This document shows, in pieces, positions 41,235 to 60,105 of a stretch of 64,000 nucleotides of DNA. The position numbers were made by a program, and so were the translations under genes. A model generated the notes under the pieces. The model was not told the DNA's origin and did not search any database. It worked only from the letters and a program-made list of their open reading frames with translations. Within the stretch, counting starts at the first letter, position 1. Each line of letters begins with the position of its first letter. This DNA comes from Streptomyces sp. NBC_01463 (GTDB lineage Bacteria; Actinomycetota; Actinomycetes; Streptomycetales; Streptomycetaceae): contig CP109468.1 of assembly GCA_036227345.1 (NCBI GenBank), positions 5,952,001-6,016,000 on the forward strand, given 5' to 3'.

Positions 41235-42125
41235 ATGCACAAGATCCAGAAGGCCGTCATACCCGCTGCCGGGCTCGGTACCCGGTTCCTGCCGGCGACG
41301 AAGGCGACTCCCAAGGAGATGCTGCCGGTGGTCGACAAGCCGGCGATCCAGTACGTCGTGGAGGAGGCCGCCGCCGCGGGCCTGAACGACGTCCTGATGA
41401 TCACCGGGCGCAACAAGCGCGCGCTGGAGGACCACTTCGACCGGAACTACGAGCTGGAGTCGGCGCTGACCCGCAAGGGCGACGACGAGCGGCTGGTCCG
41501 GGTCCAGGAGTCCAGTGACCTGGCGACCATGCACTACGTCCGGCAGGGCGACCCCAGGGGCCTCGGCCACGCCGTCCTGTGCGCGGAGCCCCACGTGGGC
41601 GCCGAGCCCTTCGCCGTGCTGCTCGGTGACGACCTGATCGACCCGCGCGATCCGCTGCTGGCCCGCATGACCGAGATCCAGGAGCGCGAGGGCGGCAGCG
41701 TCGTCGCGCTGATGGAGGTCGCGCCCGAGCAGATCCACATGTACGGCTGCGCCGCGGTGGAGGCCACCGCGGAGGACGACGTCGTGCGCGTCACCGGACT
41801 GGTCGAGAAGCCGGAGCCCGGGGACGCCCCCAGCAATCTGGCGGTCATCGGACGCTACGTCCTGGACCCCGCCGTCTTCGGCGTGCTGCGCGAGACGGAG
41901 CCGGGCCGGGGCGGCGAGATCCAGCTGACGGACGCGCTCCAGCAGCTCGCCGCCGACGAGAAGGTCGGCGGTCCGGTGCACGGCGTCGTCTTCCGCGGCC
42001 GCCGCTACGACACCGGTGACCGAGGCGACTACCTCCGGGCCATCGTCAGACTGGCCTGCGAGCGCGAGGACCTGGGTCCGGACTTCCGTACCTGGCTGCG
42101 CGGCTTCGTGGCCGCCGAGCTCTGA
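41235..42125 (+). CDS. galU: UTP-glucose-1-phosphate uridylyltransferase
   Basis: Makes UDP-glucose from UTP and glucose 1-phosphate. 296 residues; nucleotide-binding start A-A-G-L-G-T-R-F-L-P-A-T-K-A-T-P-K-E-M-L (about residues 9-28), V-L-L-G-D-D-L metal site and E-K-P in the sugar pocket, all typical of GalU rather than RmlA. ATG at 41235. It opens a three-gene group between the RNase E/G gene and rplU and can feed the GalE epimerase and glycosyltransferases downstream. In the S. coelicolor order I remember, no such genes separate RNase ES from rplU, so this may be a lineage-specific insertion. Confidence 0.95.
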   Translation: MHKIQKAVIPAAGLGTRFLPATKATPKEMLPVVDKPAIQYVVEEAAAAGLNDVLMITGRNKRALEDHFDRNYELESALTRKGDDERLVRVQESSDLATMHYVRQGDPRGLGHAVLCAEPHVGAEPFAVLLGDDLIDPRDPLLARMTEIQEREGGSVVALMEVAPEQIHMYGCAAVEATAEDDVVRVTGLVEKPEPGDAPSNLAVIGRYVLDPAVFGVLRETEPGRGGEIQLTDALQQLAADEKVGGPVHGVVFRGRRYDTGDRGDYLRAIVRLACEREDLGPDFRTWLRGFVAAEL

Positions 42126-42188
42126 GCCGCCCGCACGGCGCACGCACCCCACCCGAGACACCCGCACCAAGGACCAAGGAGAACCCTC

Positions 42189-42941
42189 ATGATCGGCATG
42201 ATTCTGGCGGCCGGCGCCGGCCGCCGTCTGCGCCCCTACACCGACACGCTTCCCAAGGCCCTGGTGCCGGTCGGGCCCGAGGGCGACGAGGAGAGCCTGA
42301 CCGTCGTCGACCTGACGCTCGGCAACTTCGCCGAGGTCGGCCTGACCGACGTCGCGATCATCGTGGGCTACCGCAAGGAGGCCCTGTACGAGCGCAAGGC
42401 CGCCCTGGAGGCGAAGTACGGCGTCAGCATCACGCTGATCGACAACGACAAGGCCGAGGAGTGGAACAACGCCTACTCCCTCTGGTGCGGCCGTGACGCC
42501 CTCAAGGACGGCGTGATCCTCGCCAACGGCGACACCGTGCACCCCGTCTCCGTCGAGAAGACGCTGCTCGCCGCCCGCGGCGAGGGCAAGAAGATCATCC
42601 TCGCCCTCGACACGGTCAAGCAGCTGGCCGACGAGGAGATGAAGGTCGTCGTCGACCCCGGCAAGGGCGTCCAGCGGATCACCAAGCTGATGGACCCGTC
42701 CGAGGCCACCGGCGAGTACATCGGCGTCACGCTCATCGAGGGCGACGCGGCCGAGGAGCTGGCCGACGCGCTGAAGACCACGTTCGAGCGCGACCCGGAC
42801 CTGTACTACGAGGACGGCTACCAGGAGCTCGTCAACCGCGGCTTCAAGGTCGACGTGGAGCCGATCGGCGACGTCAAGTGGGTCGAGATCGACAACCACG
42901 AGGACCTGGCCAAGGGCAGGACCATCGCGTGCCAGTACTGA
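42189..42941 (+). CDS. nucleotidyltransferase (phosphocholine/glycerol-phosphate cytidylyltransferase-like)
   Basis: 250-residue GT-A-fold NTP transferase. Signature A-A-G-A-G-R-R-L-R-P-Y-T (about 7-18) then L-P-K-A-L-V-P-V; N-N-A-Y-S-L-W is the segment typical of LicC-type phosphocholine and related alditol-phosphate cytidylyltransferases; A-N-G-D is the metal site; the C terminus has W-V-E-I-D-N-H-E-D. The overlapping next gene is a glycerol-1-phosphate dehydrogenase homologue, so the likely substrate is glycerol phosphate and CTP, giving CDP-glycerol; choline, inositol or sugar phosphates are alternatives. ATG at 42189 is preceded by AAGGAGAACCCTC. Confidence 0.88.
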   Translation: MIGMILAAGAGRRLRPYTDTLPKALVPVGPEGDEESLTVVDLTLGNFAEVGLTDVAIIVGYRKEALYERKAALEAKYGVSITLIDNDKAEEWNNAYSLWCGRDALKDGVILANGDTVHPVSVEKTLLAARGEGKKIILALDTVKQLADEEMKVVVDPGKGVQRITKLMDPSEATGEYIGVTLIEGDAAEELADALKTTFERDPDLYYEDGYQELVNRGFKVDVEPIGDVKWVEIDNHEDLAKGRTIACQY

Positions 42942-43990
42942 CCCGGCTCATCCCCGCACCGGTCGTCGTCGACATCCGGGCAGGCGCTCTGGCCGATCTG
43001 GCGGGCGTCCTCGCCGATCAGCGGATCTCCGGCTCGGGCAAGCTGGCGATAGCGATCAGCGGGGGTTCCGGCCGGGCGCTGCGTGAGCGGCTCTCGGACA
43101 GCCTGCCGGGCGCTTCCTGGTTCGAGGTGGGCGGCGGCACGCTGAACGACGCCGTCAAGCTCGCCGAGGCCATGAAGTCCGGCCGGTACGACGCCGTCGT
43201 GGGACTCGGCGGCGGCAAGATCATCGACTGTGCGAAGTTCGCCGCGGCGCGCATCGGGCTGCCGCTGGTCGCCGTGGCGACGAACCTGTCGCACGACGGT
43301 CTGTGCTCCCCGGTGGCGACGCTGGACAACGACGCGGGCCGCGGCTCGTACGGTGTCCCGAACCCGATCGCCGTCGTCATCGACCTCGACATCATCCGTG
43401 AGGCCCCGGACCGCTTCGTGCGGTCCGGGATCGGTGACGCGCTCTCCAACATCTCCGCCGTGGCGGACTGGGAGCTCGCCCACCGGGTCAACGGCGAGGA
43501 CATCGACGGACTGGCCGCGGCGATGGCCCGGCAGGCCGGTGAGGCCGTGCTGCGCCACCCCGGGGCCCTCGGCGACGACTCCTTCCTCCAGGTGCTGGCG
43601 GAAGGGCTGGTGCTGACCGGTATCTCGATGTCGGTGGCGGGCGACAGCCGTCCCGCCTCCGGCGCCTGCCACGAGATCAACCACGCCTTCGACCTGCTCT
43701 TCCCGCAGCGTGCGGCGAGCCACGGGGAGCAGTGCGGGCTGGGCGCGGCGTTCGCGATGCATCTGCGCGGCGCCCACCGGGAGTCCGTCCGGATGACCGA
43801 GGCGCTGCGGCGCCACGGCCTGCCGGTCACCGCGGAGGAGATCGGCTTCAGCGCGGACGAGTTCGTCTCGGTGGTCGACTTCGCACCCCGGACCAGGCCG
43901 GGCCGGTACACGATCCTGGAACACCTGGACCTGTCCACGGACGGGATCAGGGACGCCTACGCCGACTACGTCAGGGCCGCGGCGGCCTGA
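42929..43990 (+). CDS. sn-glycerol-1-phosphate dehydrogenase-like protein (AraM/Fe-ADH_2 family)
   Basis: 353 residues of the iron/zinc dehydroquinate-synthase-like alcohol dehydrogenase superfamily, the branch that reduces dihydroxyacetone phosphate to sn-glycerol 1-phosphate. Seen: G-G-G-T-L-N-D and V-G-L-G-G-G-K-I-I-D (NAD(P) loop, about residues 88-97), N-L-S-H-D-G (the archaeal/AraM signature), D-S-R-P-A-S-G-x-x-H-E-I-N-H (metal ligand His) and H-G-E-Q-C-G. GTG at 42929 overlaps the nucleotidyltransferase stop by 13 bases, so translation is coupled and the two enzymes probably act in sequence. Ends before the rplU promoter. Confidence 0.9.
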   Translation: MPVLTRLIPAPVVVDIRAGALADLAGVLADQRISGSGKLAIAISGGSGRALRERLSDSLPGASWFEVGGGTLNDAVKLAEAMKSGRYDAVVGLGGGKIIDCAKFAAARIGLPLVAVATNLSHDGLCSPVATLDNDAGRGSYGVPNPIAVVIDLDIIREAPDRFVRSGIGDALSNISAVADWELAHRVNGEDIDGLAAAMARQAGEAVLRHPGALGDDSFLQVLAEGLVLTGISMSVAGDSRPASGACHEINHAFDLLFPQRAASHGEQCGLGAAFAMHLRGAHRESVRMTEALRRHGLPVTAEEIGFSADEFVSVVDFAPRTRPGRYTILEHLDLSTDGIRDAYADYVRAAAA

Positions 43991-44005
43991 AGAGGGGGGC
44001 CCGGT

Positions 44006-44035
44006 TTGACCGGGCTGTCCAGGGCCCCGTAATCT
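44006..44035 (+). promoter_or_regulatory. rplU promoter TTGACC-N18-TAATCT
   Basis: TTGACC (44006-44011) and TAATCT (44030-44035) with an 18-base spacer, 16 bases after the dehydrogenase stop. It gives a leader of about 147 bases before rplU. Confidence 0.65.
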
Positions 44036-44188: not shown

Positions 44189-44509
44189 GTGTACGCCATC
44201 GTGCGCAGCGGTGGTCGCCAGCACAAGGTTGCTGTCGGCGACATCGTTGAGGTTGACAAGATTCCCACCGCCAAGGTTGGCGACACGGTAGAGCTCTCTA
44301 CCCTGCTCGTTGTCGACGGCGACGCCGTGACCAGCGACCCGTGGGTGCTGGACGGCATCAAGGTCCAGGCCGAGATTGTGGACCACCACAAGGGCGCGAA
44401 GATCGACATCCTTCGCTACAAGAACAAGACCGGTTACCGCCGTCGCCAGGGTCACCGCCAGCAGTACACGGCGATCAAGGTCACCGGCATCCCCGCGGCT
44501 GCGAAGTAA
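44189..44509 (+). CDS. rplU: 50S ribosomal protein L21
   Basis: 106 residues with the L21 signature in the C-terminal half ([20 protein letters not shown]) and the opening [16 protein letters not shown] at 44189, with GAGTGAGAGTGAGATC upstream as a degenerate Shine-Dalgarno. It starts the rplU-rpmA operon; rpmA follows after 14 bases. Confidence 0.98.
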
Positions 44510-44523
44510 GGGACTGAGAACAC

Positions 44524-44781
44524 ATGGCACACAAGAAGGGCGCATCGTCCACCCGGAACGGGCGCGATTCCAATGCTCAGCGGCTCGGCGTGAAGCGCTT
44601 CGGCGGTCAGGCCGTCAACGCCGGTGAGATCCTGGTCCGCCAGCGCGGCACCCACTTCCACCCGGGCACGGGCGTCGGCCGTGGCGGCGACGACACGCTG
44701 TTCGCCCTCGCCGCCGGTGCGGTCGAGTTCGGCACGCACCGTGGCCGCAAGGTCGTGAACATCGTTCCGATCGCCGGCTGA
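44524..44781 (+). CDS. rpmA: 50S ribosomal protein L27
   Basis: 85 residues, starting M-A-H-K-K-G, so it lacks the N-terminal extension that some Firmicutes cleave. G-V-K-R-F-G-G-Q and [11 protein letters not shown] are standard. ATG at 44524 lies 14 bases after rplU. A bulged hairpin terminator follows before obg. Confidence 0.98.
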
Positions 44782-44919: not shown

Positions 44920-46359
44920 ATGACCACCTTCGTGGACCGCGTCGAGCTGCATGTCGCCGCGGGTAACGGGGGCCACGGCTGTGCCTCCGTTCACCGTGAG
45001 AAGTTCAAGCCGCTCGGCGGCCCGGACGGCGGCAACGGCGGCCGTGGCGGCGATGTGACGCTGATCGTCGACCAGGCGGTCACCACGCTCCTCGACTATC
45101 ACCACCACCCCCACCGCAAGGCCACCAACGGCCAGCCCGGCGCGGGCGACAACCGCACCGGCAAGGAGGGCCAGGACCTGGTCCTGCCCGTGCCGGACGG
45201 CACCGTCGTCCTCGACGGCGAGGGCAACGTGCTCGCCGACCTCGTCGGCCAGGGCACCATGTTCGTCGCCGGCCAGGGCGGCCGCGGCGGCCTCGGCAAC
45301 GGCGCGCTGGCCTCCGCCCGGCGCAAGGCCCCCGGCTTCGCGCTGCTCGGCGAGCCCGGTGAGTCCCGGGACATCGTCCTGGAGCTGAAGACCGTCGCCG
45401 ATGTGGCCCTGGTGGGGTACCCGAGCGCGGGCAAGTCCTCGCTGATCTCGGTCCTGTCGGCCGCCAAGCCGAAGATCGCCGACTACCCGTTCACGACCCT
45501 CGTCCCGAACCTGGGCGTGGTCACCGCGGGCTCCACCGTCTACACCATCGCCGACGTCCCGGGCCTGATCCCGGGCGCCAGCCAGGGCAAGGGCCTCGGC
45601 CTGGAGTTCCTGCGCCACGTCGAGCGCTGCTCGGTCCTGGTGCACGTGCTGGACACGGCGACGCTGGAGTCCGACCGCGACCCCGTCTCCGACCTCGACA
45701 TGATCGAGGAGGAGCTCAAGCTCTACGGGGGTCTGGACGACCGGCCCCGCATCGTCGTCCTCAACAAGATCGACATTCCGGACGGCCAGGACCTCGCGGA
45801 CATGATCCGCCCGGAGCTGGAGGCGCGCGGCTACCGCGTCTTCGAGGCGTCTGCCGTCGCCCGTACCGGCCTCAAGGAGCTGTCCTTCGCGCTGGCCGGT
45901 GTCATCGCCGAGGCGCGTGCCGCCAAGCCGGTGGAGGAGGCGACCCGTATCGTCATCCGGCCCAAGGCCGTGGACGACGCCGGTTTCACCGTGAAGCTGG
46001 AGGACGACGGCATCTACCGGGTGCGCGGCGAGAAGCCGGAGCGCTGGGTGCGCCAGACCGACTTCAACAACGACGAGGCCGTCGGCTACCTCGCGGACCG
46101 GCTGAACCGGCTCGGTGTCGAGGACGCGCTGCGCAAGGCCGGTGCCCGGGCGGGCGACGGCGTGGCCATCGGCGCCGAGGACAACGCCGTGGTTTTCGAC
46201 TGGGAGCCGACGGTGACCGCCGGTGCGGAGATGCTCGGCCGCCGCGGCGAGGACCACCGTCTGGAGGAGCCGCGTCCGGCCGCTCAGCGCCGTCGCGACC
46301 GCGAGGACGAGCGCGACGAGGTCAGCAAGGAGTACCAGGAGTTCGACCCGTTCGCGTAA
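44920..46359 (+). CDS. obg: GTPase Obg/CgtA
   Basis: Essential ribosome-assembly GTPase; in S. coelicolor its level affects aerial mycelium formation. 479 residues: glycine-rich Obg fold (about 1-160, with N-G-G-H-G-C-A-S and G-G-x-G-G-x-G-G runs), GTPase domain with G1 [10 protein letters not shown]3 D-V-P-G-L-I and G4 N-K-I-D, and the C-terminal OCT domain (about 340-425), then a charged tail. ATG at 44920 has GGAGG nine bases upstream. A strong terminator follows. Confidence 0.98.
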
Positions 46360-46700: not shown

Positions 46701-48734
46701 GTGAAGATTTCATTTCTGGTGCGCGACCTCTGCCACATGGGCGGAGTTGTCAGTGCCACGCAGAATCTGGCGGGTGCACTCGCGGCCCGGCACGACGTGG
46801 AGATCGTCGCACTCCGCAAGGTGCGGGACGAGTCCTACTTCCCGCTCGACCCGCGCGTCTCCGTGCGTGTGCTGACCGACCTGCGCCAGCACTCCCCGAC
46901 ATCGGACCTGGACGACCCGCTGATCGCGGTCTTCCCCAAGGTCTACCCGGTGGACCCGGCGGAGAAGAAGCCGGTGGTCAGCCGGCTCGCGGAGCTGCGA
47001 CTGCTCGAATTCCTCGCGACGACCGACTCGGACGTCGTGGTGAGCTCCAGCCCGCGCAACACGATCATGCTCTCGTACGCCGAGGGTGATTACCTGCGGG
47101 TCACGCAGGAGCACTCGATGCCCTCGATCTACGCGAAGTACTACCAGGGCCGGCTGTTCAAGGCGTACCACTCGCTGGACGCGCTCACCGCGCTGACGCC
47201 CGAAGAGGTCGAGAGCATCGGCAAGCTGGTGCCGGGCGTACGCAACCGGCTGGCCGTCATGCCGAACTGCGTGCCCGCGGCCCCGGTGCAGTCCAAGAGC
47301 ACCAACAAGGTCGTCATCGCGGCCGGTCTCCTCAAGGAGAACAAGAACTTCGCCGCGGTCGTCGACGCCTTCGCCACCGTCGTGGCCAAGCGCCCCGACT
47401 GGCGGCTGCGGATCTACGGCGGCGGCACCGAGAAGGCCAATCTGCGCAAGCAGATCGAGACCCTCGGCCTGCACAACACCGTGACGCTGATGGGCCCGGC
47501 CGCCCCGGTCGCGCCCGAGTTCAGCAAGGGCTCGATCTTCGTGCTGCCCTCCAAGCGCGAGGCGTTCGGCAACGTGATCGTCGAGGCGATGGCGGCCGGT
47601 CTGCCCGTCGTCAGCACCGACGCCGACCACGGCCCGCGCAACATCATCACGCACGGCGAGGACGGCCTCATCGTCCCGCGCGGCGACACCGCCGCCATGG
47701 CCGACGCCATCCTCGAACTCGTCGAGGACGACGAGCGGCGCAAGCAGATGGGCGAGGCGGCCGTGCGCAACGCGGTGCGCTTCCACGAGCCGGCCAGCTG
47801 CGCCCGCTTCGAGGCGATCCTGCACGACGCGTTCACCCGCCGCGCACTGCCGACGACGGCCACCGCCCAGGTCGACCCGCTGGGCTCGGTCCGGATCGAG
47901 GTCGGCGCACTGCCGGCCGAGGTGCACGGCGCCGAGATCGCCTGCCGCCGGGTCGGACGCAACCCGGCGGAGAAGCGGTTCGCCATCGACCCGGGCGGCA
48001 GCGCCGTGGTGCCCTGGCACGGCGGACTGCCCGAGGGCACCTGGGAACTGTCCGTGTGCACCCCTGAGGGCAACGAGGTGCCGCTCACGGTGGACGGCTA
48101 CGGCTGCGACGTACGGGACCTGCTCAACGTGCCGCTGCCCCGGGAGAACGGCGCCCCCGCCCTGGAGCTGCTGCTCCCGCACCGGGGCGAGATGGACCGC
48201 CTGCGGATCCGCAGCGTGGTGCGCGACGCCCATGTGGAGATCGACGCGGTCGCGGTCGACACCGAGGCCATCGAGCTGGACGCCGCCGGCTGGGGCGTGA
48301 CGCTCGGCCCCGGCGCGGCGCTGGAGGCCGTGCACCGCAAGGACAAGGACCGGGTGCTGTCGTTCCCCGTCTCGGCCCTCGAAGGGCAGCGGGTCAGCGC
48401 CCGGGTCGACTGCGCCGCGCTGGTGCGTGAGCACGAGGGGCCCGAGCAGATCTGGGACGTGTGGCTGCGCCCCGCGGCCGGCGCCGACCGCGTCCAGGTC
48501 GGCAAGCTCGCCACCGATGTCCTCGCGCCCATAGGGGTGTTCACCTTCCCCCGGCCGGTGATCCGGATCCTGCCCGAGCCCAGTAGGACCCTGCTGGCGA
48601 AGGTCGGCCGCCGGGTGACCCGCACGCTGAACGGCGGCAAGCCGGCGCCGCGCCCGGTCACGAAGATCGAGATCCGGCCGTACTACACGGCGCTGTCGCA
48701 GCTCGCCTTCAAGACGGTGGACGTGGAGCCGTAG
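46701..48734 (+). CDS. GT4-type glycosyltransferase with long beta-rich C-terminal extension
   Basis: 677 residues. Residues 1-380 are a GT-B glycosyltransferase of family 4: N-terminal acceptor half with the G-G-V glycine loop (about 14-16), then V-V-I-A-A-G-L-L-K-E-N-K-N-F and the nucleotide-sugar EX7E region P-S-K-R-E-A-F-G-N-V-I-V-E-A (about 288-301). Residues 390-677 are non-catalytic, rich in predicted beta strands and aromatic ends, possibly one or two Ig-like sugar-binding modules. No signal peptide or transmembrane helix, so it acts at the inner face of the membrane. GTG at 46701 has only a weak AAAGA upstream. It likely builds the wall glycopolymer or its linker; sugar unknown. Confidence 0.92.
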   Translation: MKISFLVRDLCHMGGVVSATQNLAGALAARHDVEIVALRKVRDESYFPLDPRVSVRVLTDLRQHSPTSDLDDPLIAVFPKVYPVDPAEKKPVVSRLAELRLLEFLATTDSDVVVSSSPRNTIMLSYAEGDYLRVTQEHSMPSIYAKYYQGRLFKAYHSLDALTALTPEEVESIGKLVPGVRNRLAVMPNCVPAAPVQSKSTNKVVIAAGLLKENKNFAAVVDAFATVVAKRPDWRLRIYGGGTEKANLRKQIETLGLHNTVTLMGPAAPVAPEFSKGSIFVLPSKREAFGNVIVEAMAAGLPVVSTDADHGPRNIITHGEDGLIVPRGDTAAMADAILELVEDDERRKQMGEAAVRNAVRFHEPASCARFEAILHDAFTRRALPTTATAQVDPLGSVRIEVGALPAEVHGAEIACRRVGRNPAEKRFAIDPGGSAVVPWHGGLPEGTWELSVCTPEGNEVPLTVDGYGCDVRDLLNVPLPRENGAPALELLLPHRGEMDRLRIRSVVRDAHVEIDAVAVDTEAIELDAAGWGVTLGPGAALEAVHRKDKDRVLSFPVSALEGQRVSARVDCAALVREHEGPEQIWDVWLRPAAGADRVQVGKLATDVLAPIGVFTFPRPVIRILPEPSRTLLAKVGRRVTRTLNGGKPAPRPVTKIEIRPYYTALSQLAFKTVDVEP

Positions 48735-48813: not shown

Positions 48814-51800
48814 CTACTTCTCCTCGGTGAGCTCCGTCGCCTGTTCGATCATGCGGTCCACGACGCGCTGCGAGGCGCGGCCGTCGTCCAGGTCGCAGAA
48901 CAGGTGGTGGAAGCGGTCGAAGCGCTCGGTGTACTCGGGCCAGACCGTGTCGATGTTGCGGATCGAGTCGATCAGCTCCGACGAGGTGCGGACCAGCGGG
49001 CCGGGCGAGTCCTTCTCGAAGTCGAAGTAGAACCCGCGCAGCGTGTCGCGGTAGTGCTCCAGGTCGTACGTGAAGAAGAGCATCGGCCGCTTGAGGTGCG
49101 CGTAGTCGAACATCACGGACGAGTAGTCGGTGATCATGATGTCGGACGCCAGGTACAGGTCGGCGATGTCCGGGTACTCGGAGACGTCCCAGACGAAGCC
49201 GTTGCCGGCGCCGGGCACCTGGTCGACGACGTTGGAGTGGCGCCGGATCAGCAGGACGTGGTCGTCGCCGAGGCGGCGGCGGGCGTCCTCCAGGTCGAGC
49301 CGGAGGTCGAAGGAGTACTGACCGGCCCGGTGCGACTGGTCGTCGCGCCAGGTCGGGGCGTAGAGCACGACCTTCTTGCCCTCGGGCAGCCCGATGCGCT
49401 TCTTGATCTCCTCGGCGAGCTTGACCCGCTCGTCGGAGTACAGGTAGTCGTTGCGCGGGTAGCCGGCCTCCAGGATCTCCCCGTCGTAGGAGAAGGCCCG
49501 CTTCAGGATCGGTGTGCTGAAGCGGTTGGAGGAGACGAGCATGCTCCAGTTCTTCGCTTCGAGCTCCAGACGCTTCTGGTACTCCTTGTCGAAGTGGAGC
49601 GTGTCGATGTCATGGCCGATCTTCTTCAGCATCGTGCCGTGCCAGGTCTGGACGATGACCTGGCCGGGACGCCGGACGACCCACTCCGGAAGGTGCGCGT
49701 TGGTCACGATGTACTTGCTGGAGGCCAGCGCGTCGAACCACTCCGTGCCCCACATCCGGACCTTCTCGGCCGTCGGAGGCAGCTCCACCTGGCCGTCGCG
49801 GACCGCCCACAGGTGCTTGAGGTCGGCGCCCCGGCGCACCAGCTCCTCGTGCATGGCACGCGGGCTGTCCGAGTACTGCTTGCCGTTGTAGCTCAGGTAG
49901 AACACCTGGTCGCGCAGCGGCTCCAGGCACTTGGCGTCGTACACCTCGCGGCGCAGCTGGGCCTGGCGGAACGGGCCGCGCTCCACATCGGCCAGCTCCG
50001 AGCGGCAGTTCAGCTGCGGGAAGTCGTGCCAGCGAGCCTCCAGCCAGTACCGGCGGCCCTTCAGCGTGACGTGCAGCGGGAACTGCTCCGATGCGAGGCG
50101 GTCGATGACGAACTCGACGTCCGCGCCGTCGGGCTGACGGAGGAAGAAGTTCCACCGGCCGGCCTTGAGCGGGATGGTGCCCTGGGAGCCACCGCCCAGC
50201 GTCGAGGGGTCGAAGGCCGTCTCGTACGAGCCGTCGGCGGTCCAGCTGATCGGGACGGTGCGCTCGTCGAACCGGTCCTTGGCCTTCAGCAGCAGCTCGG
50301 AACCGACCAGGTGCTGCGGGGCGTGGCCGGACAGGACGAGCTTGCCGTCGCGCTCGCCCACCTGCGTCATCACGGCACGCTCGGTCTGGCCGCGGAACTT
50401 GAGGTAGCCGTTGTGGCCGGCGATGGCCGCCAGCTCATGACGGCCCGCCTGCCGGCCCATGCTCGCGGGCAGCTGGAAGCGCGCGTCCTCCAGACCCTCC
50501 TGGACGACGGTGCTCAGCCGGCGCGGTGCCGCCTCCTCGTCGGAACCGGAGATCAGCAGCGCCGTGCTCCAGTTGCGGACCCGGGGCTGGGCGTGGCCGT
50601 CGGTCGTCTCGGCGGTGACCAGGGCGACATCGGCGAGCGGGACCTCGACGCGGAACGCGCTGGTGCCGCCCTGCTCGGCGTCGACCGTGACCGGGTAGCG
50701 CCGGATCTCACCGCTGGACTGGTTGGAGACCTGCAGCGTGACGGTCTCGTCGCTCGCCAGCGGCGTACGGATCTCGCCCCGGATCACGATCCGGTCGCCC
50801 TCCAGCTCGCGGCCGGTCACCAGCGCGTTGACCCGCTCGATGCGCAGCTTGAGCGCGGCGCCCTCGACGCTCGGGAGCATCCGGTAGTTCTTGTCGAGCC
50901 ACTGGTAGGGCGGGAAGTTGGCGGCGCTGCCGCCGTTGGACTGGATACCGCGGCGGCGCAGCAGACCGGAGCTCATGACGATCACGCCGATGTGCCAGAT
51001 GCCCTCCTCCCACTGCCCGTTGTGCCGGAGCTTGGCGGGGTCGAAGGAGAACTCCCAGCCGGACCAGTCGTAGTTGTAGCGCTTCTGCCAGGTGTCGGAG
51101 GTCCGGCCAGGGCGGAAGATGTTCTTCGCCGGGAAGATCAGACGGCGGCGCGAGCCGCCCTTCTTGATCTGGATGAACTTGGCGGTGCTGCGCCGGTTCG
51201 GGATGTCGATCTTGTCTATCCAGGCGTCGCCCGTCAGCAGCAGCTTGCCCTTCTGCCACTCCACACCGACCAGCGGGGTCCTGAGCTCCAGGTCCTTGTC
51301 GATGCGCAGGGTCTTGCGGGAGAGCGTGACTCCGCTGCGGTCCAGGGCCTTGAACCCGGCGTACTTGCGCAGGAAGCCGCTGACCTCGACCGGCTCACGG
51401 CGCCGCTGGTCGGCGAGGAGGTCGATCAGCTCGGAGATCGCGCCGCGGCGCACCAGCGCGTACTGCACGCGCAGCACGGCGGGCAGCTCGTCCAGGACCT
51501 GCGGTTCGACCTGGTCGAGGTAGCGGTTGGCCGCGATGAGGAAGGCCTCGCGGTACTCCTCGTCCCCGTCCGGCACGACGTTCAGGAAGATGCGGAGGTC
51601 GTCCCGGAGCACCCGGGCGTCGTACTCCCGCTTGAACTGGGCCCACTTGGAGCCGGGGCGGTCGGCGAGGAACTGCGTGACCGTCTCGCAGGCGGCGACC
51701 CGGTCGCGGACACCCTGCGGGTCGGTGCGGCGCTGGGTGATCGACGGGGCGGACTCGCCCTCGCGCAGCCGCCAGTAGTAGACGGGCTCGCCGATCAGGT

Positions 51801-52398: not shown

Positions 52399-52420
52399 GT
52401 TTTTCGGCATTCCTTTCGGG

Positions 52421-54652
52421 TCAGACCCGCTCGACCAGTTCGAGCGCCTGGGCAGGGGACGGTGCCGGCTTGCGTGCGGCAAGCGGGACGACGGGAAGGA
52501 CGTTCTCTTCGTTCAGGAAGACGGCGCGGACGACGCGCTCGGCGGCATGGCCGTCGTCGAAGTCGCAGAAGCGCTCACGGAACGCGCTGCGGAAGGTGGC
52601 GGACTTCTCGCTCTGCCACTCGCCGGACCGGAGGATCTCGGTGAGCTGCGCCTGGGTGGTGGCGACGGCGCCGGGGGGCTCGGCCATCAGGTCGAAGTAG
52701 CTTCCCCGGACGACCTTGTACGTGTCCCAGTCGTCGGCGTAGATCACGATCGGCCGGTCGAGGTTGGCGTAGTCGAACATCGCCGAGGAGTAGTCGGTGA
52801 TGAGCGCGTCGGCCGCCAGGTAGAGCTGCTCCACGTTCTGGTGCGCGGAGACGTCGATGACCCGGCCGCTGGCCTGGAGCTCGGCGAGCCGGCCCGTGGG
52901 CTTGTAGAAGTAGTGGCCGCGCACCAGCAGGGTGACTTCCGGGCCCAGCTCCTCGGCCAGCTTCGCCAGGTCGATCCGCGGGGTGAATTCCTTCTGGTAC
53001 TCACGGTGGGTCGGCATGTAGAGGAAGACCTTGGAGCCGTCCGCCGCGCCGAGCTCACGGCGGGCCTGCGCGACCTCGCGGGCACCGGAGTTGATCAGCA
53101 CGTCGTTGCGCGGATACCCGGTCTCCAGCGAGGTGTAGGTGCAGGGATAGACCCGCTCCCACACCGAGGTCGAGAAGCGGTTGGAGGAGATGCTGTAGTC
53201 CCAGCGGTCGCAGCGCCGCAGCAGGTCCTCCATGTCCATGTTCGTGGAGGCCGGGTAGTTGGCCTGGTCGAGGCCCATCGTCTTCAGCGGGGTGCCGTGA
53301 TGGGTCTGCAGATGGATCTGGCCCTCGCGCTTGACCAGCGCGTCGGCGAAGTTCACGTTGTTGATGAAGTACGTGCCGCGGGCCAGCGCCGTCCAGTACT
53401 CGCGGGACCCGACGACGACCACCTCGACGCCCTTGGGCACCCGGCTCACGTGCTCGGCGCGCACCGCCCAGACCCGGCGGATGTGCGGGGCCAGCCGGGC
53501 CAGCTCGGCGTCGATGGCCGCGGGGTTGCAGGAGTAGCCCCGGCTCCAGTAGGCGGAGAAGACCGCGAGGTTCTCGTCCAGCGGCAGCCGCAGCTGGGAC
53601 TGGTAGATCATCCGCATCGCGGCGCGCTTGGCCCGGCCGATGCGCTCGATGTTGCGCGCCCGCGTCCGGTTGCGCACCCGGCTGGCGCGGGTGACCCCGG
53701 TCAGTCCCGTATAGGAGTCCCGGCTGAGCAGTGCGTACTTATAACCGCGCCCACCGCCCGGACGCTCGAATCCTTCGGGCAGCCGGCGGGTGTATTCCGC
53801 GGCCGCGCGATGGAAGAATTCGGACCGTGCCGCCTTCGGGAGACGGCCCGGCTTCTCCATGACGGTGAGATAGTGGTCGATCATTTTACGGAAAAGCGCG
53901 GGACGCCAGGAATCGAGTTCCGGGTGTTCGTCCACATAAGCGAATACGCGGTCGTACTGGTCGAATACATCGAAATGCTTGCGGCTGACCGTGCGAAGGA
54001 TGTTCCCGCCCTCGCGGCGCTGCCGGTAGAGCACGCAGACGCGGTCGAGCACCGCGATGCTCTCCGCCGTGATCAGGGTGGAGTACGTCCAGGGGGCGTC
54101 CTCGTAGTACCCGGTCGGGAACTGGAATCCGTGCGCCTCGACGAAATCGCGGCGGTAGGCCTTGTTCCAGACGATCTGCAGCAGATCGAGCAGCTCCGGC
54201 CGCTCCGACAGGGGGAAGACCGCGGGCTCACTGCGGGCGAGGAGGTCGGCGCGCTGGTTGGGCAGCAGCCGTCCGTCCCAGTAGCTGCGCGTGTAGTCGT
54301 AGATCAGGACGTCGGGGTCGTCCGTCGCGTCGAGGCGTCCCGCGATGGCGCTCAGCGAGCCGGGCGTCAGTGTGTCGTCGCTGTCGAGGAAGAGCAGGTA
54401 GTCACCGGTCGCCTGCTCGATTCCGGCGTTACGGGCGTGGCCCAGGCCCACGTTCTCGCTGAGGTGGAGCACCCGGACCCGGGCGTCGCGCCCCGCGTAC
54501 TCGTCGAGGATGGCGCCGGAGGCGTCCGGCGAGCAGTCGTCCACGGCGACGACCTCGAAGTCGGTGAAGTCCTGCTGAAGCACGGAGTCGAGGCACTCCC
54601 GAACATACCCCTGCACGTTGTACGCAGGCACGATGAGTGTCAGTCGAGGCAT
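52421..54652 (-). CDS. GT2 glycosyltransferase fused to TagF-type (CDP-glycerol) polymer transferase
   Basis: 743 residues. GT2 domain (about 1-250): L-T-L-I-V-P-A-Y-N-V, V-D-D-C-S-P-D (Asp38-Asp39) and L-D-S-D-D (Asp90-Asp93). After a short linker comes the PF04464 transferase (about 370-725): T-H-H-G-T-P-L-K-T-M (His near 449), Y-M-P-T-H-R, V-R-G-H-Y and I-T-D-Y-S-S-A-M-F-D-Y. It lacks the roughly 450-residue beta-rich middle of its operon partner. ATG at 54650-54652 is preceded by CTGGTGAAGG. It may add the sugar-phosphate repeat jointly with its partner. Codon choice around 53750-54000 (gene middle) is a little AT-richer than elsewhere. Confidence 0.93.
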   Translation of the reverse strand: MPRLTLIVPAYNVQGYVRECLDSVLQQDFTDFEVVAVDDCSPDASGAILDEYAGRDARVRVLHLSENVGLGHARNAGIEQATGDYLLFLDSDDTLTPGSLSAIAGRLDATDDPDVLIYDYTRSYWDGRLLPNQRADLLARSEPAVFPLSERPELLDLLQIVWNKAYRRDFVEAHGFQFPTGYYEDAPWTYSTLITAESIAVLDRVCVLYRQRREGGNILRTVSRKHFDVFDQYDRVFAYVDEHPELDSWRPALFRKMIDHYLTVMEKPGRLPKAARSEFFHRAAAEYTRRLPEGFERPGGGRGYKYALLSRDSYTGLTGVTRASRVRNRTRARNIERIGRAKRAAMRMIYQSQLRLPLDENLAVFSAYWSRGYSCNPAAIDAELARLAPHIRRVWAVRAEHVSRVPKGVEVVVVGSREYWTALARGTYFINNVNFADALVKREGQIHLQTHHGTPLKTMGLDQANYPASTNMDMEDLLRRCDRWDYSISSNRFSTSVWERVYPCTYTSLETGYPRNDVLINSGAREVAQARRELGAADGSKVFLYMPTHREYQKEFTPRIDLAKLAEELGPEVTLLVRGHYFYKPTGRLAELQASGRVIDVSAHQNVEQLYLAADALITDYSSAMFDYANLDRPIVIYADDWDTYKVVRGSYFDLMAEPPGAVATTQAQLTEILRSGEWQSEKSATFRSAFRERFCDFDDGHAAERVVRAVFLNEENVLPVVPLAARKPAPSPAQALELVERV

Positions 54653-54959
54653 CCTTCACCAGTCCAGAGAGCTGTCTGCAGGGTCCGTGCGCAGGCACCG
54701 ATTCGCACCGCGGAATCATGGGGGAGGGCCTGAGCACCTGAACAGCGTAATTGATTGACATCCGCCTGCTGCGGCCTTGTGTTTGCCCCGGCTTCATCCG
54801 GGGCTGTCCGGCTTCACCCGTGATGTTCCCCGGACGTCACCCGCACAAGCCTGCATGTCGCACGATAATACTGTTGATACCTCTTTGTCTGATTCGATTT
54901 TCCGCACACGTAGAGTGGGCCACTCGGCAGGACCACGCGCAGAGGGAGAGACGCACAGA
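54653..54959. promoter_or_regulatory. divergent promoter region, polymerase operon / galE
   Basis: This 307-base stretch has AT-rich elements on both sides: GTAATTGATTGACATC near 54747-54762 (minus-strand side) and GATAATACTGTTGATACC near 54864-54881, TTGTCT (54885-54890) with TAGAGT (54911-54916) at a long 20-base spacer (galE side). No gene seen. Confidence 0.5.
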
Positions 54960-55931
54960 ATGACCTGGATGGTTACGGGCGGGGCCGGATACATAGGTGC
55001 GCACGTCGTGCGGGCGATGCTCGCGGGCGGTCTGCAGGTCGTCGTGTACGACGACCTGTCCACGGGGAACGCCGGGAACGTGCCCGAAGGGGTGCCCCTG
55101 GTCACCGGGAGCGTGCTGGACCGGGAGGCCCTGGACGCGGCGATCCGTGACCACACCGTGACAGGTGTGGTGCATGTCGCAGGCAAGAAGCAGGTCGGCG
55201 AGTCCGTGGAGCGCCCCCTCTACTACTACCGGGAGAACGTGACCGGTCTGGAGGTGCTGCTGGAGAGCATGGTGGGGGCGGGCATCGACCGGCTGGTGTT
55301 CTCCTCGTCGGCCGCCGTCTACGGCATGCCCGATGTGGACCTCGTCACCGAGGACACCCCCTGCGCGCCGATGAGCCCGTACGGGGAGACCAAGCTCGTC
55401 GGCGAATGGCTGATCCACGCCGCCGCCCGGGCCCACGGACTGCGCTGCGCCTCGCTCCGCTACTTCAACGTCGCCGGTGCGGCCTCGCCCGAGCTGGCCG
55501 ACGCCGGGGTGTTCAACCTCATCCCGATGGTCTTCGAGCGCCTGGAGGCCGGTGAGGGCCCGCGGATCTTCGGCGACGACTACGCGACCCCCGACGGCAC
55601 CTGCGTGCGCGACTACATCCATGTGGAGGACATCGCCTCCGCCCACCTCGCCGCCGCCCGCCGCCTGGAGGCGGCCGAGCCCGGCACCGACCTCACGCTG
55701 AACATCGGCCGCGGCGAGGGCAGCTCGGTGCGCGAGATGGTCGACCGGATCCTCAAGACGACGGACCACGGGGACATCGCCCCCGAGGTCACCGCCCGCC
55801 GCCCGGGCGACCCGGCCCGCGTCGTCGCCGGCGCGGACCGGATCCGCGCGGAGCTGGACTGGTCGGCCCGGTACGGGATCGACGAGATGATCGAGTCCGC
55901 CTGGCAGGGCTGGCGCCTGCGCCACCCGTAG
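54960..55931 (+). CDS. galE: UDP-glucose 4-epimerase
   Basis: Interconverts UDP-glucose and UDP-galactose (or the N-acetyl forms). 323 residues, extended SDR fold: NAD loop T-G-G-A-G-Y-I-G (about residues 6-13), V-Y-D-D-L-S-T-G-N, the S-S-S-A-A-V-Y-G catalytic Ser region, Y-G-E-T-K (catalytic Tyr/Lys) and R-Y-F-N-V-A-G-A. ATG at 54960 has GGGAGAG upstream; an in-frame ATG at 54969 is closer to the NAD loop. Paired with galU at 41 kb it would supply UDP-galactose for the glycopolymer. Two hairpins follow the stop. Confidence 0.95.
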   Translation: MTWMVTGGAGYIGAHVVRAMLAGGLQVVVYDDLSTGNAGNVPEGVPLVTGSVLDREALDAAIRDHTVTGVVHVAGKKQVGESVERPLYYYRENVTGLEVLLESMVGAGIDRLVFSSSAAVYGMPDVDLVTEDTPCAPMSPYGETKLVGEWLIHAAARAHGLRCASLRYFNVAGAASPELADAGVFNLIPMVFERLEAGEGPRIFGDDYATPDGTCVRDYIHVEDIASAHLAAARRLEAAEPGTDLTLNIGRGEGSSVREMVDRILKTTDHGDIAPEVTARRPGDPARVVAGADRIRAELDWSARYGIDEMIESAWQGWRLRHP

Positions 55932-56503: not shown

Positions 56504-57574
56504 GTGAAGGCTCTCGTACTTTCCGGCGGGGCAGGCACCCGGCTTCGTCCCATTACGCATACCTCGGCCAAGCAACTGGTCCCGGTGGCGAACAAACCGG
56601 TGCTGTTCTACGGGCTGGAAGCCATCGCGGAAGCCGGTATCACCGAGGTGGGCATCATCGTGGGCGACACCCAGGAGGAGATCCGTGCGGCGGTCGGCGA
56701 CGGCTCCCGGTTCGGCATCGACGTCACCTACATCCCGCAGTCCGAGCCGCTCGGCCTCGCCCACGCGGTCCTGATCGCCCAGCGGTTCCTCGGCGACGAC
56801 GACTTCGTCATGTACCTCGGCGACAACTTCGTCGTCGGCGGGATCGCCGACCTGGTCGAGGGGTTCTGCGCGGACCGCCCCGACGCGCAGATCCTGCTGA
56901 CCCAGGTGCCCGACCCGACCGCCTTCGGCGTCGCCGAACTCGACGGGGACGGCAGGGTGGTGGCCCTGGAGGAGAAGCCCAAGGAGCCCAAGAGCGATCT
57001 GGCGCTCGTCGGCGTCTACCTCTTCACCCGGGCCATCCACGAGGCCGTCCGCTCCATCCGGCCGTCCTGGCGCGGCGAGCTGGAGATCACCCACGCCATC
57101 CAGTGGCTGATCGACCAGGAGCGCGACGTCCGCTCCACCACGATCCGCGGGTACTGGAAGGACACCGGCAACGTCACCGACATGCTGGAGGTCAACCGGA
57201 CCGTGCTGGAGACCGTCGAACCCTGCACCCGCGGCGCCCACGTCGACGACGAGAGCGAGATCATCGGCCGGGTGCTGATCGAGCCCGGCGCCCGCGTCAC
57301 CCGCAGCCGGATCGTGGGCCCCGCCATCATCGGCGCCCGTTCGGTGATCGGCGACGCCTACGTCGGGCCGTTCACCTCGGTCGCCCAGGACTGCCGGATC
57401 GAGGACAGTGAGATCGAGTACTCGATCGTGCTGCGCGGTGCCTCGATCGACGGCGTCCGCCGCGTCGAGGCCTCCCTCATCGGCCGCGACGTCGAGGTGA
57501 CGCCCGCGCCCCGGAGCCCGTCCGCCCACCGACTCGTCCTCGGTGACCACAGCAAGGTGCAGATCTCCTCATGA
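56504..57574 (+). CDS. rmlA: glucose-1-phosphate thymidylyltransferase, long form
   Basis: Makes dTDP-glucose, first step of dTDP-rhamnose synthesis. 356 residues: nucleotidyltransferase domain with L-S-G-G-A-G-T-R-L-R-P (about 6-16) and Y-L-G-D-N metal site, plus a left-handed beta-helix C terminus (about 250-350). This is the long, StrD-like form of actinobacteria rather than the 290-residue RmlA of enterics, so the product could be dTDP-glucose used elsewhere. GTG at 56504. The stop overlaps the rmlB start as ATGA, so rmlA-rmlB-rmlD form a coupled operon. Confidence 0.93.
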   Translation: MKALVLSGGAGTRLRPITHTSAKQLVPVANKPVLFYGLEAIAEAGITEVGIIVGDTQEEIRAAVGDGSRFGIDVTYIPQSEPLGLAHAVLIAQRFLGDDDFVMYLGDNFVVGGIADLVEGFCADRPDAQILLTQVPDPTAFGVAELDGDGRVVALEEKPKEPKSDLALVGVYLFTRAIHEAVRSIRPSWRGELEITHAIQWLIDQERDVRSTTIRGYWKDTGNVTDMLEVNRTVLETVEPCTRGAHVDDESEIIGRVLIEPGARVTRSRIVGPAIIGARSVIGDAYVGPFTSVAQDCRIEDSEIEYSIVLRGASIDGVRRVEASLIGRDVEVTPAPRSPSAHRLVLGDHSKVQISS

Positions 57575-58557
57575 CGAACCGTCTCCTGGTGACCGGCGGC
57601 GCCGGCTTCATCGGCTCGCACTACGTCCGCACACTGCTGGGCCCGGACGGCCCCGGCGACCTCGCCGTCACCGTGCTCGACCGGCTCACCTACGCGGGCA
57701 ACCCGGCCAACCTCGACGAGGTCCGCGGCCACCCCGGCTTCTCGTTCGTCCAGGGCGACATCTGCGACGCGGAACTGGTCGGCAGCCTCATGGCCGGGCA
57801 CGACCAGGTGGTGCACTTCGCCGCCGAATCGCATGTGGACCGTTCCATCGACGGCGGCGCCGAGTTCGTCCGTACCAACGTCGTCGGCACCCACACCCTC
57901 GTCGACGCCGCGCACCGGGCCGGTGTCACCACCTTCGTGCACGTCTCCACCGACGAGGTCTACGGATCCATCGACGAGGGGTCCTGGACCGAGAGCGAGC
58001 CGCTCGCGCCCAACTCCCCGTACTCCGCGTCCAAGGCCTCCAGCGACCTGATCGCCCTCTCGTACCACCGCACCCACGGACTCGACGTGCGGGTGACCCG
58101 CTGCTCCAACAACTACGGGCACCACCACTTCCCGGAGAAGGTCATCCCGCTCTTCGTCACCAACCTGCTCGACGGCCGGCCGGTCCCGCTGTACGGGGAC
58201 GGCGCCCATGTCCGCGACTGGCTGCACATCGACGACCACGTCCAGGGCATCGAGCTCGTCCGCACCAAGGGCCGCGCCGGCCAGGTCTACAACATCGGCG
58301 GCGGCACCGAGCTCTCCAACAAGGAGCTCACCGGACTGCTGCTGGAGGCCTGCGGCGCGGACTGGGACACGGACGTCACCCACGTCGAGGACCGCAAGGG
58401 CCACGACCGGCGCTACTCCGTCGACTGCACCCGGATCCGCGAGGAGCTCGGCTACGAACCCCGCAAGGACTTCCGCACCGGACTCGCCGAGACCGTGCGG
58501 TGGTACCGGGAGAACCGCTCCTGGTGGGAGCCGCTCAAGGAGAGGGCCGCCCTGTGA
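57571..58557 (+). CDS. rmlB: dTDP-glucose 4,6-dehydratase
   Basis: Second step of dTDP-rhamnose synthesis, giving dTDP-4-keto-6-deoxyglucose with a bound NAD. 328 residues: G-G-A-G-F-I-G-S-H (about 8-16), V-H-F-A-A-E-S-H-V-D, catalytic S-T-D-E-V-Y-G (Asp-Glu pair) and Y-S-A-S-K (Tyr/Lys), R-C-S-N-N-Y-G. ATG at 57571 overlaps the rmlA stop by 4 bases and its own stop overlaps the rmlD GTG by 4 bases. Confidence 0.96.
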   Translation: MTNRLLVTGGAGFIGSHYVRTLLGPDGPGDLAVTVLDRLTYAGNPANLDEVRGHPGFSFVQGDICDAELVGSLMAGHDQVVHFAAESHVDRSIDGGAEFVRTNVVGTHTLVDAAHRAGVTTFVHVSTDEVYGSIDEGSWTESEPLAPNSPYSASKASSDLIALSYHRTHGLDVRVTRCSNNYGHHHFPEKVIPLFVTNLLDGRPVPLYGDGAHVRDWLHIDDHVQGIELVRTKGRAGQVYNIGGGTELSNKELTGLLLEACGADWDTDVTHVEDRKGHDRRYSVDCTRIREELGYEPRKDFRTGLAETVRWYRENRSWWEPLKERAAL

Positions 58558-59471
58558 ACCCCGTCTGGCTGGTCACCGGGGCCGGCGGAATGCTCGGACA
58601 GGACCTGCTGGCCGCCCTCGCCCACGAGGACGTCATCGCCGTCGCCGCGGACCGCACTGCCCTGGACATCGCCGACCCGGCCCGCGTCCGCGAGGCGTTC
58701 GCCGCCCACCGGCCCGCGGTTGTCGTCAACTGCGCGGCCTGGACCGCCGTCGACGACGCCGAGAGCCGGGAGGACGCCGCCCTGCGGGTCAACGGCACCG
58801 GACCCGCGGTCCTCGCCGAGGCCTGCCGCGAGCACGGCGCCGTCCTGATCCACGTCTCCACCGACTACGTCTTCGCCGGGGACGGCATCCGGCCGTACGC
58901 CGAGGACGCCCCCACCGCCCCGCGCACCGCCTACGGCCGCACCAAACTGGCCGGCGAACGCGCCGTGCTGGAGACCCTGCCCGACACCGGCTACGTCGTG
59001 CGCACCGCCTGGCTCTACGGTGCGGGCGGCGCCAGCTTCGTCCGTACGATGATCAGGCTGGAGGGCGTCAAGGACACCCTCGACGTGGTGGACGACCAGC
59101 GCGGGCAGCCCACCTGGACCGTCGATCTGGCCGACCGGCTGGTCCGGCTCGGACGGGCCGCACTGGCGGGCACCGCCCCGGCGGGCGTCTACCACGGCAC
59201 CAGCGGCGGCGAGACGACCTGGTACGGCCTCGCCCGGGAGGTCTTCCGGCTGCTGGGCGCCGACCCGGCCCGCGTCCGGCCCACCACCAGCGGCGCCTAC
59301 CCCCGCCCGGCCCCCCGGCCCGCGTACAGCGTGCTCGCGCATGAGCGGTTCGCGGCGGCCGGGATCGAACCCGTCCGGGACTGGCGCACGGCACTGGAGG
59401 AGGCGTTCCCGGCGCTGCTCGCCGCGGAACGCCCCTCGGAGACCGCCCTGGTCAGCGGCCGGCCGGACTGA
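58554..59471 (+). CDS. rmlD: dTDP-4-dehydrorhamnose reductase
   Basis: Last step, reducing dTDP-4-keto-L-rhamnose to dTDP-L-rhamnose with NADPH. 305 residues, SDR fold: G-A-G-G-M-L-G-Q-D (about 9-17), N-C-A-A-W-T-A-V-D, S-T-D-Y-V-F-A-G and Y-G-R-T-K. GTG at 58554 shares GTGA with the rmlB stop. Its last 20 bases overlap the convergent rmlC gene. Confidence 0.95.
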   Translation: MNPVWLVTGAGGMLGQDLLAALAHEDVIAVAADRTALDIADPARVREAFAAHRPAVVVNCAAWTAVDDAESREDAALRVNGTGPAVLAEACREHGAVLIHVSTDYVFAGDGIRPYAEDAPTAPRTAYGRTKLAGERAVLETLPDTGYVVRTAWLYGAGGASFVRTMIRLEGVKDTLDVVDDQRGQPTWTVDLADRLVRLGRAALAGTAPAGVYHGTSGGETTWYGLAREVFRLLGADPARVRPTTSGAYPRPAPRPAYSVLAHERFAAAGIEPVRDWRTALEEAFPALLAAERPSETALVSGRPD

Positions 59472-60105
59472 GCGCGGGCCCGCCGGCCCGCACCCCGGCC
59501 AGGGGCGGGGCGGCCGTCCGCAGCCGCGCGTAGTACGCCTCGCACTCCCCGTACGAGGGAAGCAGCCCCTGGTTCTCCGCCTCGGCCAGCGAGGGCGCCC
59601 CGGCGTCCTTCCCCGACAGCAGCGGCACGATGTCCGCCGGCCAGGCGATGCCCAGCTCCGGGTCGAGCGGATCGATGCCGTGCTCGCGACCCGGCGCGTA
59701 GCCCTCGGAGCACAGATAGACGACGCTCGCGTCGTCCATCAGCGCCATGAAGGCGTGGCCGAGCCCCTCGGCGAGGTACACCGCACGGTGATCGGTGTCG
59801 TCGAGCCGGACACCCTCCCACCGCCCGTAGGCGGGTGAGCCGGCCCGGACGTCCACGATCACGTCGAGCACCGCGCCGCGCACGCACTTCACGTACTTCG
59901 CCTGCCCCGGCGGCACGTCGGCGAAGTGGATGCCGCGCAGCGTGCCCCGGCGCGAGACGGAGAAGTTGGCCTGCGCGAGCCCCAGCGCGTGCCCCGCGGC
60001 CTCGCCGAGGTCGGCGGCCCTGAACCACTCGTGGAAGCTGCCGCGGCTGTCGGGGATGACCTCGGGCTCGTGCACCCAGGCCCCGGGGATGGAGAGCTGG
60101 CGCAT
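59452..60105 (-). CDS. rmlC: dTDP-4-dehydrorhamnose 3,5-epimerase family protein
   Basis: Cupin epimerase, third step of dTDP-rhamnose synthesis. 217 residues: F-x-E-W-F near residue 24-28, N-F-S-V-S-R-R-G-T-L-R-G-I-H-F with catalytic His60, K-Y-V-K-C-V-R-G, and G-x-G-H-A-F. It completes rmlA-B-D but runs against them and overlaps the rmlD end by 20 bp, so it has its own promoter in the gap before proB. ATG at 60103-60105 has ACAGGACG upstream; the longer open frame upstream is not family-like. Some such genes in antibiotic clusters epimerise only C3 or C5, but the complete rml set argues for rhamnose. Confidence 0.93.
   Translation of the reverse strand: MRQLSIPGAWVHEPEVIPDSRGSFHEWFRAADLGEAAGHALGLAQANFSVSRRGTLRGIHFADVPPGQAKYVKCVRGAVLDVIVDVRAGSPAYGRWEGVRLDDTDHRAVYLAEGLGHAFMALMDDASVVYLCSEGYAPGREHGIDPLDPELGIAWPADIVPLLSGKDAGAPSLAEAENQGLLPSYGECEAYYARLRTAAPPLAGVRAGGPALSPAGR

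Follow-up and report, generated by a model that had tools for sequence, protein, structure and literature searches.

The pair of genes that encodes a LicC/PntC/IPCT-like nucleotidyltransferase (NTPT) and a homologue of glycerol-1-phosphate (G1P) dehydrogenase (G1PDH) was analysed in a 64,000-nt stretch of the 9.07 Mb genome of Streptomyces sp. NBC_01463, here called the window, with a focus on positions 41235-60105. Judged from sequence, the balance tips slightly towards this pair making CDP-glycerol from sn-glycerol-1-phosphate for the TagF-type wall polymerases in this allele of the locus. sn-Glycerol-1-phosphate is the mirror-image form of glycerol phosphate that is usually associated with archaea, and the standard CDP-glycerol enzyme is TagD. 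The case is built on gene adjacency and on the missing TagD, not on co-occurrence across genomes. The pair lies with galU in the gap between rns and rplU, and the gap between obg and proB holds a family 4 glycosyltransferase gene (GT4), two genes that fuse a GT2 glycosyltransferase to a TagF domain (TagF1 and TagF2), galE and rmlA, B, D and C. Family models and domain matches bore out the genes named for this interval in a preliminary description of the window, both in their order and in their names.

The gene pair and its TagF-type partners

The features on which the proposal depends are the following.

42189..42941, + strand: NTPT, LicC/PntC/IPCT-like nucleotidyltransferase (PF00483; LicC 1jyk; predicted-structure matches)
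42929..43990, + strand: G1PDH, glycerol-1-phosphate dehydrogenase homologue (PF13685; 4rgq; open frame from 42878)
48814..52482, - strand: TagF1, GT2-TagF fusion, 1222 aa as open frame (PF00535 + PF04464)
52421..54652, - strand: TagF2, GT2-TagF fusion, 743 aa (PF00535 + PF04464)

The reading frames of NTPT and G1PDH share 13 nt. The start of G1PDH is probably at 42929, because the resulting 353 aa are the usual length among its database relatives. G1PDH scores 102.6 bits on PF13685 (cut-off 28 bits) and matches the G1P dehydrogenase of M. jannaschii (4rgq) with an E-value of 1.4e-42. In the alignment with 4rgq it retains the Asp/His/His site, which we take to be the metal ligands of this enzyme. 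NTPT is most like cytidylyltransferases acting on small phospho-compounds, both in sequence and in fold. Its best sequence match in the PDB is LicC (1jyk, E 1.5e-12), and its predicted structure (pLDDT 94.4) gave fold-comparison Z-scores of 29.3 for PntC, 26.2 for IPCT and 25.5 for LicC. NTPT is thus proposed here as a candidate CTP:sn-glycerol-1-phosphate cytidylyltransferase. A fusion of NTPT and G1PDH was also sought, and the 120 of 4030 proteins covered were all 350-357 aa long and without PF00483, which is too small a number to be informative.

PF04464, the TagF family, was found twice in the window and six times in the whole genome. Both window proteins carry an N-terminal GT2 and a C-terminal TagF domain in a single chain. 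In a comparison that included no sugar-phosphate polymerase, the TagF domains of TagF1 and TagF2 matched TagF of S. epidermidis (3l7i) with 342 and 250 bits, versus 120 and 113 bits for Cps3D. Across a genus sample of 150 Streptomyces genomes, 138 had a TagF-type domain at E<=1e-30 and none had a TagD match (TIGR01518) above the cut-off, with Bacillus subtilis detected as the positive control for this model. The window genome gave no TagD match, and PF01467 yielded two matches only. For the IspD/TarI family (PF01128), the genome has one strong match (221 bits), one of 33 bits and two below the cut-off, none of which is among the scanned window genes.

Physical linkage of the pair to TagF-type genes recurs in two distant actinobacteria. 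A 9-kb stretch of the first (G325) carries NTPT, G1PDH, a CDP-alcohol transferase/DUF5941 gene, a GT2 and a sulfotransferase, and on the opposite strand a GT2-TagF fusion that is 50% identical to TagF2. In the second (G251), a stand-alone TagF and a more distantly related NTPT (33% identical) and G1PDH (37%) point away from each other, about 90 bp apart. As a separate observation, the GT2-TagF fusion of G325 (L282) has a sulfotransferase-like or nearby similar gene on either side; one of these is a confirmed Sulfotransfer_3, a hint that the polymer of this distant relative may be sulfated.

Within the genus, the surroundings of rplU and obg were examined in 124 of the 150 genomes (123 fetched contexts and the window; 26 left out, in part at contig ends). 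G1PDH stands at rplU in 11 of the 123 fetched contexts and in the window, thus in 12/124, which agrees with the lineage-specific placement suggested in the preliminary description. NTPT was recognised next to it in 9 of the 11 fetched contexts. With the window itself excluded, a window-like TagF (>=65%) was found between obg and proB in 7/10 contexts with G1PDH at rplU versus 4/109 without (p 6.4e-7, uncorrected for kinship), and any TagF-type domain in 8/9 versus 29/109 (p 3.6e-4, likewise uncorrected); the two counts use slightly different length limits. The pair and TagF-type genes tend to go together. In one further genome (G027, L133), three separate NTPT-like fragments lie 1.0-1.7 kb upstream of obg, and rplU has no G1PDH nearby; the fragments seem to be what is left of a decayed pair.

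The second copy of the pair

The window genome has a second G1PDH copy at C1:1214514 that is 76% identical to the first, and its overlap with the adjoining NTPT is also 13 nt, as calculated from the frame ends. The order in this cluster (L037:1711-12492; C1 ~1.207-1.218 Mb) is CDP-alcohol transferase/DUF5941, NTPT, G1PDH, GT2, ABC-2 permease and ABC ATPase. It adjoins squalene/phytoene-synthase-like genes, which are taken for hopanoid genes, and is widely shared in Streptomyces. Its ABC pair is TagGH-like, and its product may be a lipid-linked glycerol-phosphate polymer.

G1PDH was present in all 150 genus genomes, mostly away from rplU, and in 73/296 genomes of a class sample that includes the genus. 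The 30 best G1PDH loci comprise 26 of the second-copy type, every one with a CDP-alcohol transferase match (26/26), and four at rplU. Among 80 named G1PDH loci, 75 had a CDP-alcohol-transferase and/or ABC-ATPase match, and the other five were of the rplU type; an hpnC/D-like match was also present in 63 of the 80. Elsewhere in the window genome (L042, C1 ~2.05-2.06 Mb), a divergent TagF-type domain (106 bits) is encoded in a long frame near a weakly CDP-alcohol-transferase-like stretch (34%), a possible further glycerol-phosphate locus.

The window G1PDH is up to 87% identical to other-site copies of some species, compared to 76% for the second copy of its own genome. In the tree of G1PDH, the window clade is placed (support 94/73) next to long-branched copies that belong to its own lineage and stand at the other site, a placement left unresolved by a second tree. 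For this reason, a duplication within its own lineage is the simplest account. The possibility that the window pair was recently acquired from a different species was considered and not retained, since an older duplication fits this placement equally well. The rplU copies split into two clades and formed a single clade in 0/200 bootstrap trees. Two independent arrivals at rplU are thus favoured by the best tree and the bootstraps, and are not established by the approximately unbiased (AU) test (p 0.41). The tree with the AU test dropped the long-branch rows L067 and L301, both of which were kept in the other tree.

Proposed route and competing explanations

In the proposed route, G1PDH would convert dihydroxyacetone phosphate to sn-glycerol-1-phosphate, and NTPT would join this with CTP to give CDP-1-glycerol. 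TagF1 and TagF2 would then build a glycerol-phosphate or glycosylglycerol-phosphate chain. GalU and GalE would provide UDP-glucose and UDP-galactose, RmlABCD would provide dTDP-rhamnose, and GT4 may decorate the chain. In this scheme all activities, the stereochemistry and the polymer itself are predictions, and so is the rhamnose/galactose that the preliminary description had the polymer carry. Priming, export and attachment would come from other loci, for example from a TagF cluster near 5.53 Mb, whose ABC pair shows 72% and 64% identity to the TagGH-like one next to the second G1PDH. The genes annotated in the interval include no recognised exporter or ligase; no search was aimed at linkage-unit genes.

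Several findings weigh against this route. Uridylyl- and thymidylyltransferases match the NTPT model almost as well as LicC and IPCT do. G1PDH scores 244.8 bits on NCBIfam NF002022, under its 413-bit equivalog cut-off, and is therefore called a homologue and not a formal equivalog. Sub-cut-off matches to the TagD model, of at most 71 bits, occur in 100 of the 150 genus genomes. A phylum sample of 198 genomes, 189 of them outside the genus, was searched for TagF at E 1e-20 and TagD at E 1e-25. It contained 22 genomes with TagF, of which 12 had G1PDH only (nine from the genus), five TagD only, five neither and none both, a distribution that speaks for the route. Outside the genus, the association of G1PDH with TagF was not significant (p 0.40, or 0.06 at a stricter threshold; n=189), and that of TagD with TagF was (p 0.00025). 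Within the genus, a tree of obg gives three supported independent contrasts, which are too few for significance, and none of them opposes the association. One genome (G080) carries the pair with no TagF-type domain within 10.6 kb. Furthermore, 12 of the 150 genus genomes have G1PDH and no TagF-type match at E<=1e-30. The common copy must therefore have another use, perhaps that of supplying the adjoining CDP-alcohol transferase. Finally, Gram-negative GT-A/TagF fusions were reported to transfer sugar phosphate, as far as the consulted part of PMC5974469 goes. This objection and the one from the 12 genomes are the strongest.

The best of the competing explanations, which we consider unlikely, takes the TagF fusions for polymerases that turn UDP-sugars into a poly(oligosaccharide phosphate) and need no CDP-glycerol, and the pair for a separate module sharing the locus. 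A GT-A/TagF subgroup, Actinobacillus-like, does make oligosaccharide phosphates (PMC5974469, in part), and SCO2578 attaches the poly(diglycosyl 1-phosphate) that S. coelicolor has as a minor component, according to a portion of PMC11481543. A further argument is that 29 of the 109 contexts without G1PDH at rplU still have TagF-type domains between obg and proB. However, the enrichment of window-like TagF beside the pair, the clustering of a GT2-TagF fusion with the pair in G325, and the scores of TagF1 and TagF2 with S. epidermidis TagF, within the limits of that comparison, argue against this explanation.

A less probable explanation is that the pair makes a CDP-activated alcohol for the membrane CDP-alcohol transferase/DUF5941 protein of the other locus, which would yield a product that is lipid-linked or decorated with glycerophospho groups, so that the copy at rplU only raises the supply or decorates a wall glycan. 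It draws on the adjacency of the other copy to a CDP-alcohol transferase, which is constant or nearly so in the loci counted above, on the likeness of this transferase to CDP-alcohol phosphotransferases including IPCT-DIPPS, and on the 12 genomes that kept G1PDH without a TagF-type match. At rplU, however, the contexts with the pair have no CDP-alcohol transferase match and mostly have TagF (8/9 evaluable), and in G251 the neighbour of the pair is TagF. That the site is a mere insertion hotspot with functionally unrelated genes is improbable: the contents of both gaps vary widely, galU, GT4, TagF1 and rml are each present in some genomes and missing from others, and the kinship-corrected support for co-occurrence is weak, but nearly all recognised genes of the interval act on sugars, polyol phosphates or their polymers, the pair stands next to TagF in two distant genomes, and mutants and nuclear magnetic resonance (NMR) in the sections of PMC13274773 considered show that wall polymers of S. 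griseus and S. antibioticus are made by the locus.

The preferred reading, CDP-glycerol supply to the TagF-type polymerases, would fill a missing step, namely the source of CDP-glycerol in a genus with TagF-type enzymes and no TagD above the cut-off. It would also assign a task in wall synthesis to an enzyme that is mostly mentioned in connection with the archaeal lipid divide. A tentative generalisation, to which we give less credence, is that Streptomyces and some other actinobacteria build wall teichoic acid from CDP-1-glycerol, with a G1P dehydrogenase and a LicC-like cytidylyltransferase replacing TagD. If this is true, the wall polymer carries the mirror image of the glycerol in Bacillus wall teichoic acid, a configuration known from lipoteichoic acid. 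A wall teichoic acid made from CDP-1-glycerol would also fit the wall and lipoteichoic acids of S. hygroscopicus, reported as near-identical in an extract of PMC3196553. It would contradict the judgement of a 2021 paper that CDP-1-glycerol is likely absent from bacteria, as worded in the part of PMC8262930 at hand.

Variability of the locus

The preliminary description had assigned nine genes on both sides of rplU-rpmA-obg to one pathway and named their joint presence and loss across Streptomyces as a check. A single nine-gene unit is rejected, as its members come and go independently. In Streptomyces sp. JH14, the pair occurs with GT4 and both TagF genes, and galU gave no match there. A0958 and 2131.1, as well as G116 and G147 (L044, L045), have galU and the pair and showed neither GT4 nor a TagF1 match. 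Matches of the rml type were found upstream of rplU in 5/123 contexts and downstream of obg in 9/123. The rhamnose set thus occurs on either flank, given the five genomes with rmlA, rmlB and rmlC matches on the rns-rplU side (L109, L114, L126, L141 and L148).

RNase E was found upstream in 80/123 contexts. The distance from the end of the match to rplU was below 1.5 kb in 59 of them, between 1.5 and 3.5 kb in 15, and exceeded 3.5 kb in six; these distances are upper bounds, since matches may stop short of the gene end. Among the 43 contexts without RNase E, 37 had at least 9 kb of sequence upstream of obg. Downstream, proB was found in 69/123 contexts at 1.6 to 10.5 kb from the start of obg, compared to 15.4 kb in the window. 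The two flanks have a modular make-up, and the interval represents one allele of a hypervariable wall-glycopolymer locus.

Relation to known systems

The S. coelicolor genes SCO2589, SCO2590 and SCO2592 presumably lie between proB and obg. They are among the teichoic genes of this species listed in PMC3937824, and resemble the window in combining TagF-type and glycosyltransferase genes; the excerpt of this paper that was available does not mention a pair at rplU. A 2025 Cell paper relied on L21/L27 (rplU/rpmA) to locate the wall teichoic and teichuronic acid loci of 20 Streptomyces genomes and outgroups, and places UtrC (SGR_4943), TarIJ (SGR_4956) and TagF (SGR_4957) of S. griseus near these anchor genes (PMC13274773, text in part). 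There, the polymers of the locus in S. griseus and S. antibioticus are tied by mutants and NMR to umbrella-toxin recognition. A wall-glycopolymer locus split around rplU-rpmA-obg, the part of the preliminary description that held, is therefore not new, as this site is already in print (PMC13274773 and PMC3937824, each from a partial text).

The window shares with the S. griseus locus the L21/L27 anchors, the wall-polymer genes, TagF and the strong variation between species. In contrast to the ribitol phosphate polymer and TarIJ of S. griseus, it has the G1PDH-NTPT pair and a dTDP-rhamnose set, with no TarI apparent in the genome. In S. griseus and S. antibioticus, umbrella toxins have the polymers of the locus as their receptors (PMC13274773, in the portion cited above), so that glycerol versus ribitol alleles, if the proposed route holds, would form a concrete axis of surface diversity. 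The kind of locus is known, and the content of the window allele, above all the NTPT-G1PDH pair, looks new. Glycerol-type alleles may already be drawn in the figures or supplements of PMC13274773.

As in the TagD/TagF route of Bacillus, the proposed route has a TagF-type polymerase requiring a CDP-polyol; it differs in the lack of a TagD match in the window genome and in a proposed donor of the opposite enantiomer. TagF1 and TagF2 share the architecture of an N-terminal GT-A-type and a TagF domain with GT-A/TagF-like capsule polymerases (PMC5974469 and PMC8262930, in extracts). The tested fusions transfer sugar phosphate and are those of Gram-negative capsules. The window G1PDH belongs to the same enzyme class as the AraM-type G1P dehydrogenase, which forms sn-glycerol-1-phosphate according to the section of PMC8262930 used. 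AraM supplies an ether lipid, whereas the window G1PDH overlaps a nucleotidyltransferase gene amid wall genes. G1PDH in Actinobacteria, including one Streptomyces sequence, has already been tabulated (PMC5059525, seen as an excerpt). Among open-access texts, with subscription papers, figures and supplements outside the scope of the search, no report of a route to teichoic acid through G1PDH and a cytidylyltransferase was found, a weak indication that such a route is absent from print.

Gene calls in the interval

The remaining features of the locus are listed below.

37002..41078, + strand: rns, RNase E/G family, left border of the upstream gap (PF10150, 342.9 bits)
41235..42125, + strand: galU, UTP-glucose-1-phosphate uridylyltransferase (TIGR01099, 345.0 vs cut-off 326.8 bits)
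44189..44509, + strand: rplU (L21), locus anchor (translation, conserved context)
44524..44781, + strand: rpmA (L27), locus anchor (translation, conserved context)
44920..46359, + strand: obg GTPase (PF01018 and PF09269)
46701..48734, + strand: GT4 glycosyltransferase, 677 aa (PF00534/PF13692; solved relatives include TarM)
54777..55931, + strand: galE, UDP-glucose 4-epimerase (TIGR01179, 324.5 vs cut-off 262.3 bits)
56504..57574, + strand: rmlA, long form (TIGR01208, 462.7 vs cut-off 320.25 bits)
57571..58557, + strand: rmlB (TIGR01181, 429.3 vs cut-off 365.1 bits)
58554..59471, + strand: rmlD (TIGR01214, 297.6 vs cut-off 224.05 bits)
59452..60318, - strand: rmlC (PF00908, 193.9 vs cut-off 27; TIGR01221, 152.7, just below cut-off 155.75)
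60300..61433, + strand: proB, right border of the downstream gap (PF00696 + PF01472)

The dTDP-L-rhamnose set is complete, with A, B and D above their NCBIfam cut-offs and C above the Pfam cut-off only. Judging from the onset of the family matches, the likely starts of rmlC and galE are near 60102 and 54960, respectively. The genome has two copies of galU, the other of which is at C1:5243255 and 88% identical. GT4 has no Pfam match beyond residue ~380. A scan of 40900-47000 for promoters and terminators gave no promoter-like and one terminator-like site, and shuffled sequences gave at least as many. On the minus strand opposite rmlD, the frame 58452-59342 is probably a shadow of rmlD; it has no Pfam match, yet matches of 44-72% in several relatives. 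Further upstream, at a distance of 10-20 kb (24717-30996), lie, in agreement with the preliminary description, genes that resemble mreB, mreC, mreD, PBP2 and rodA, as judged by eye.

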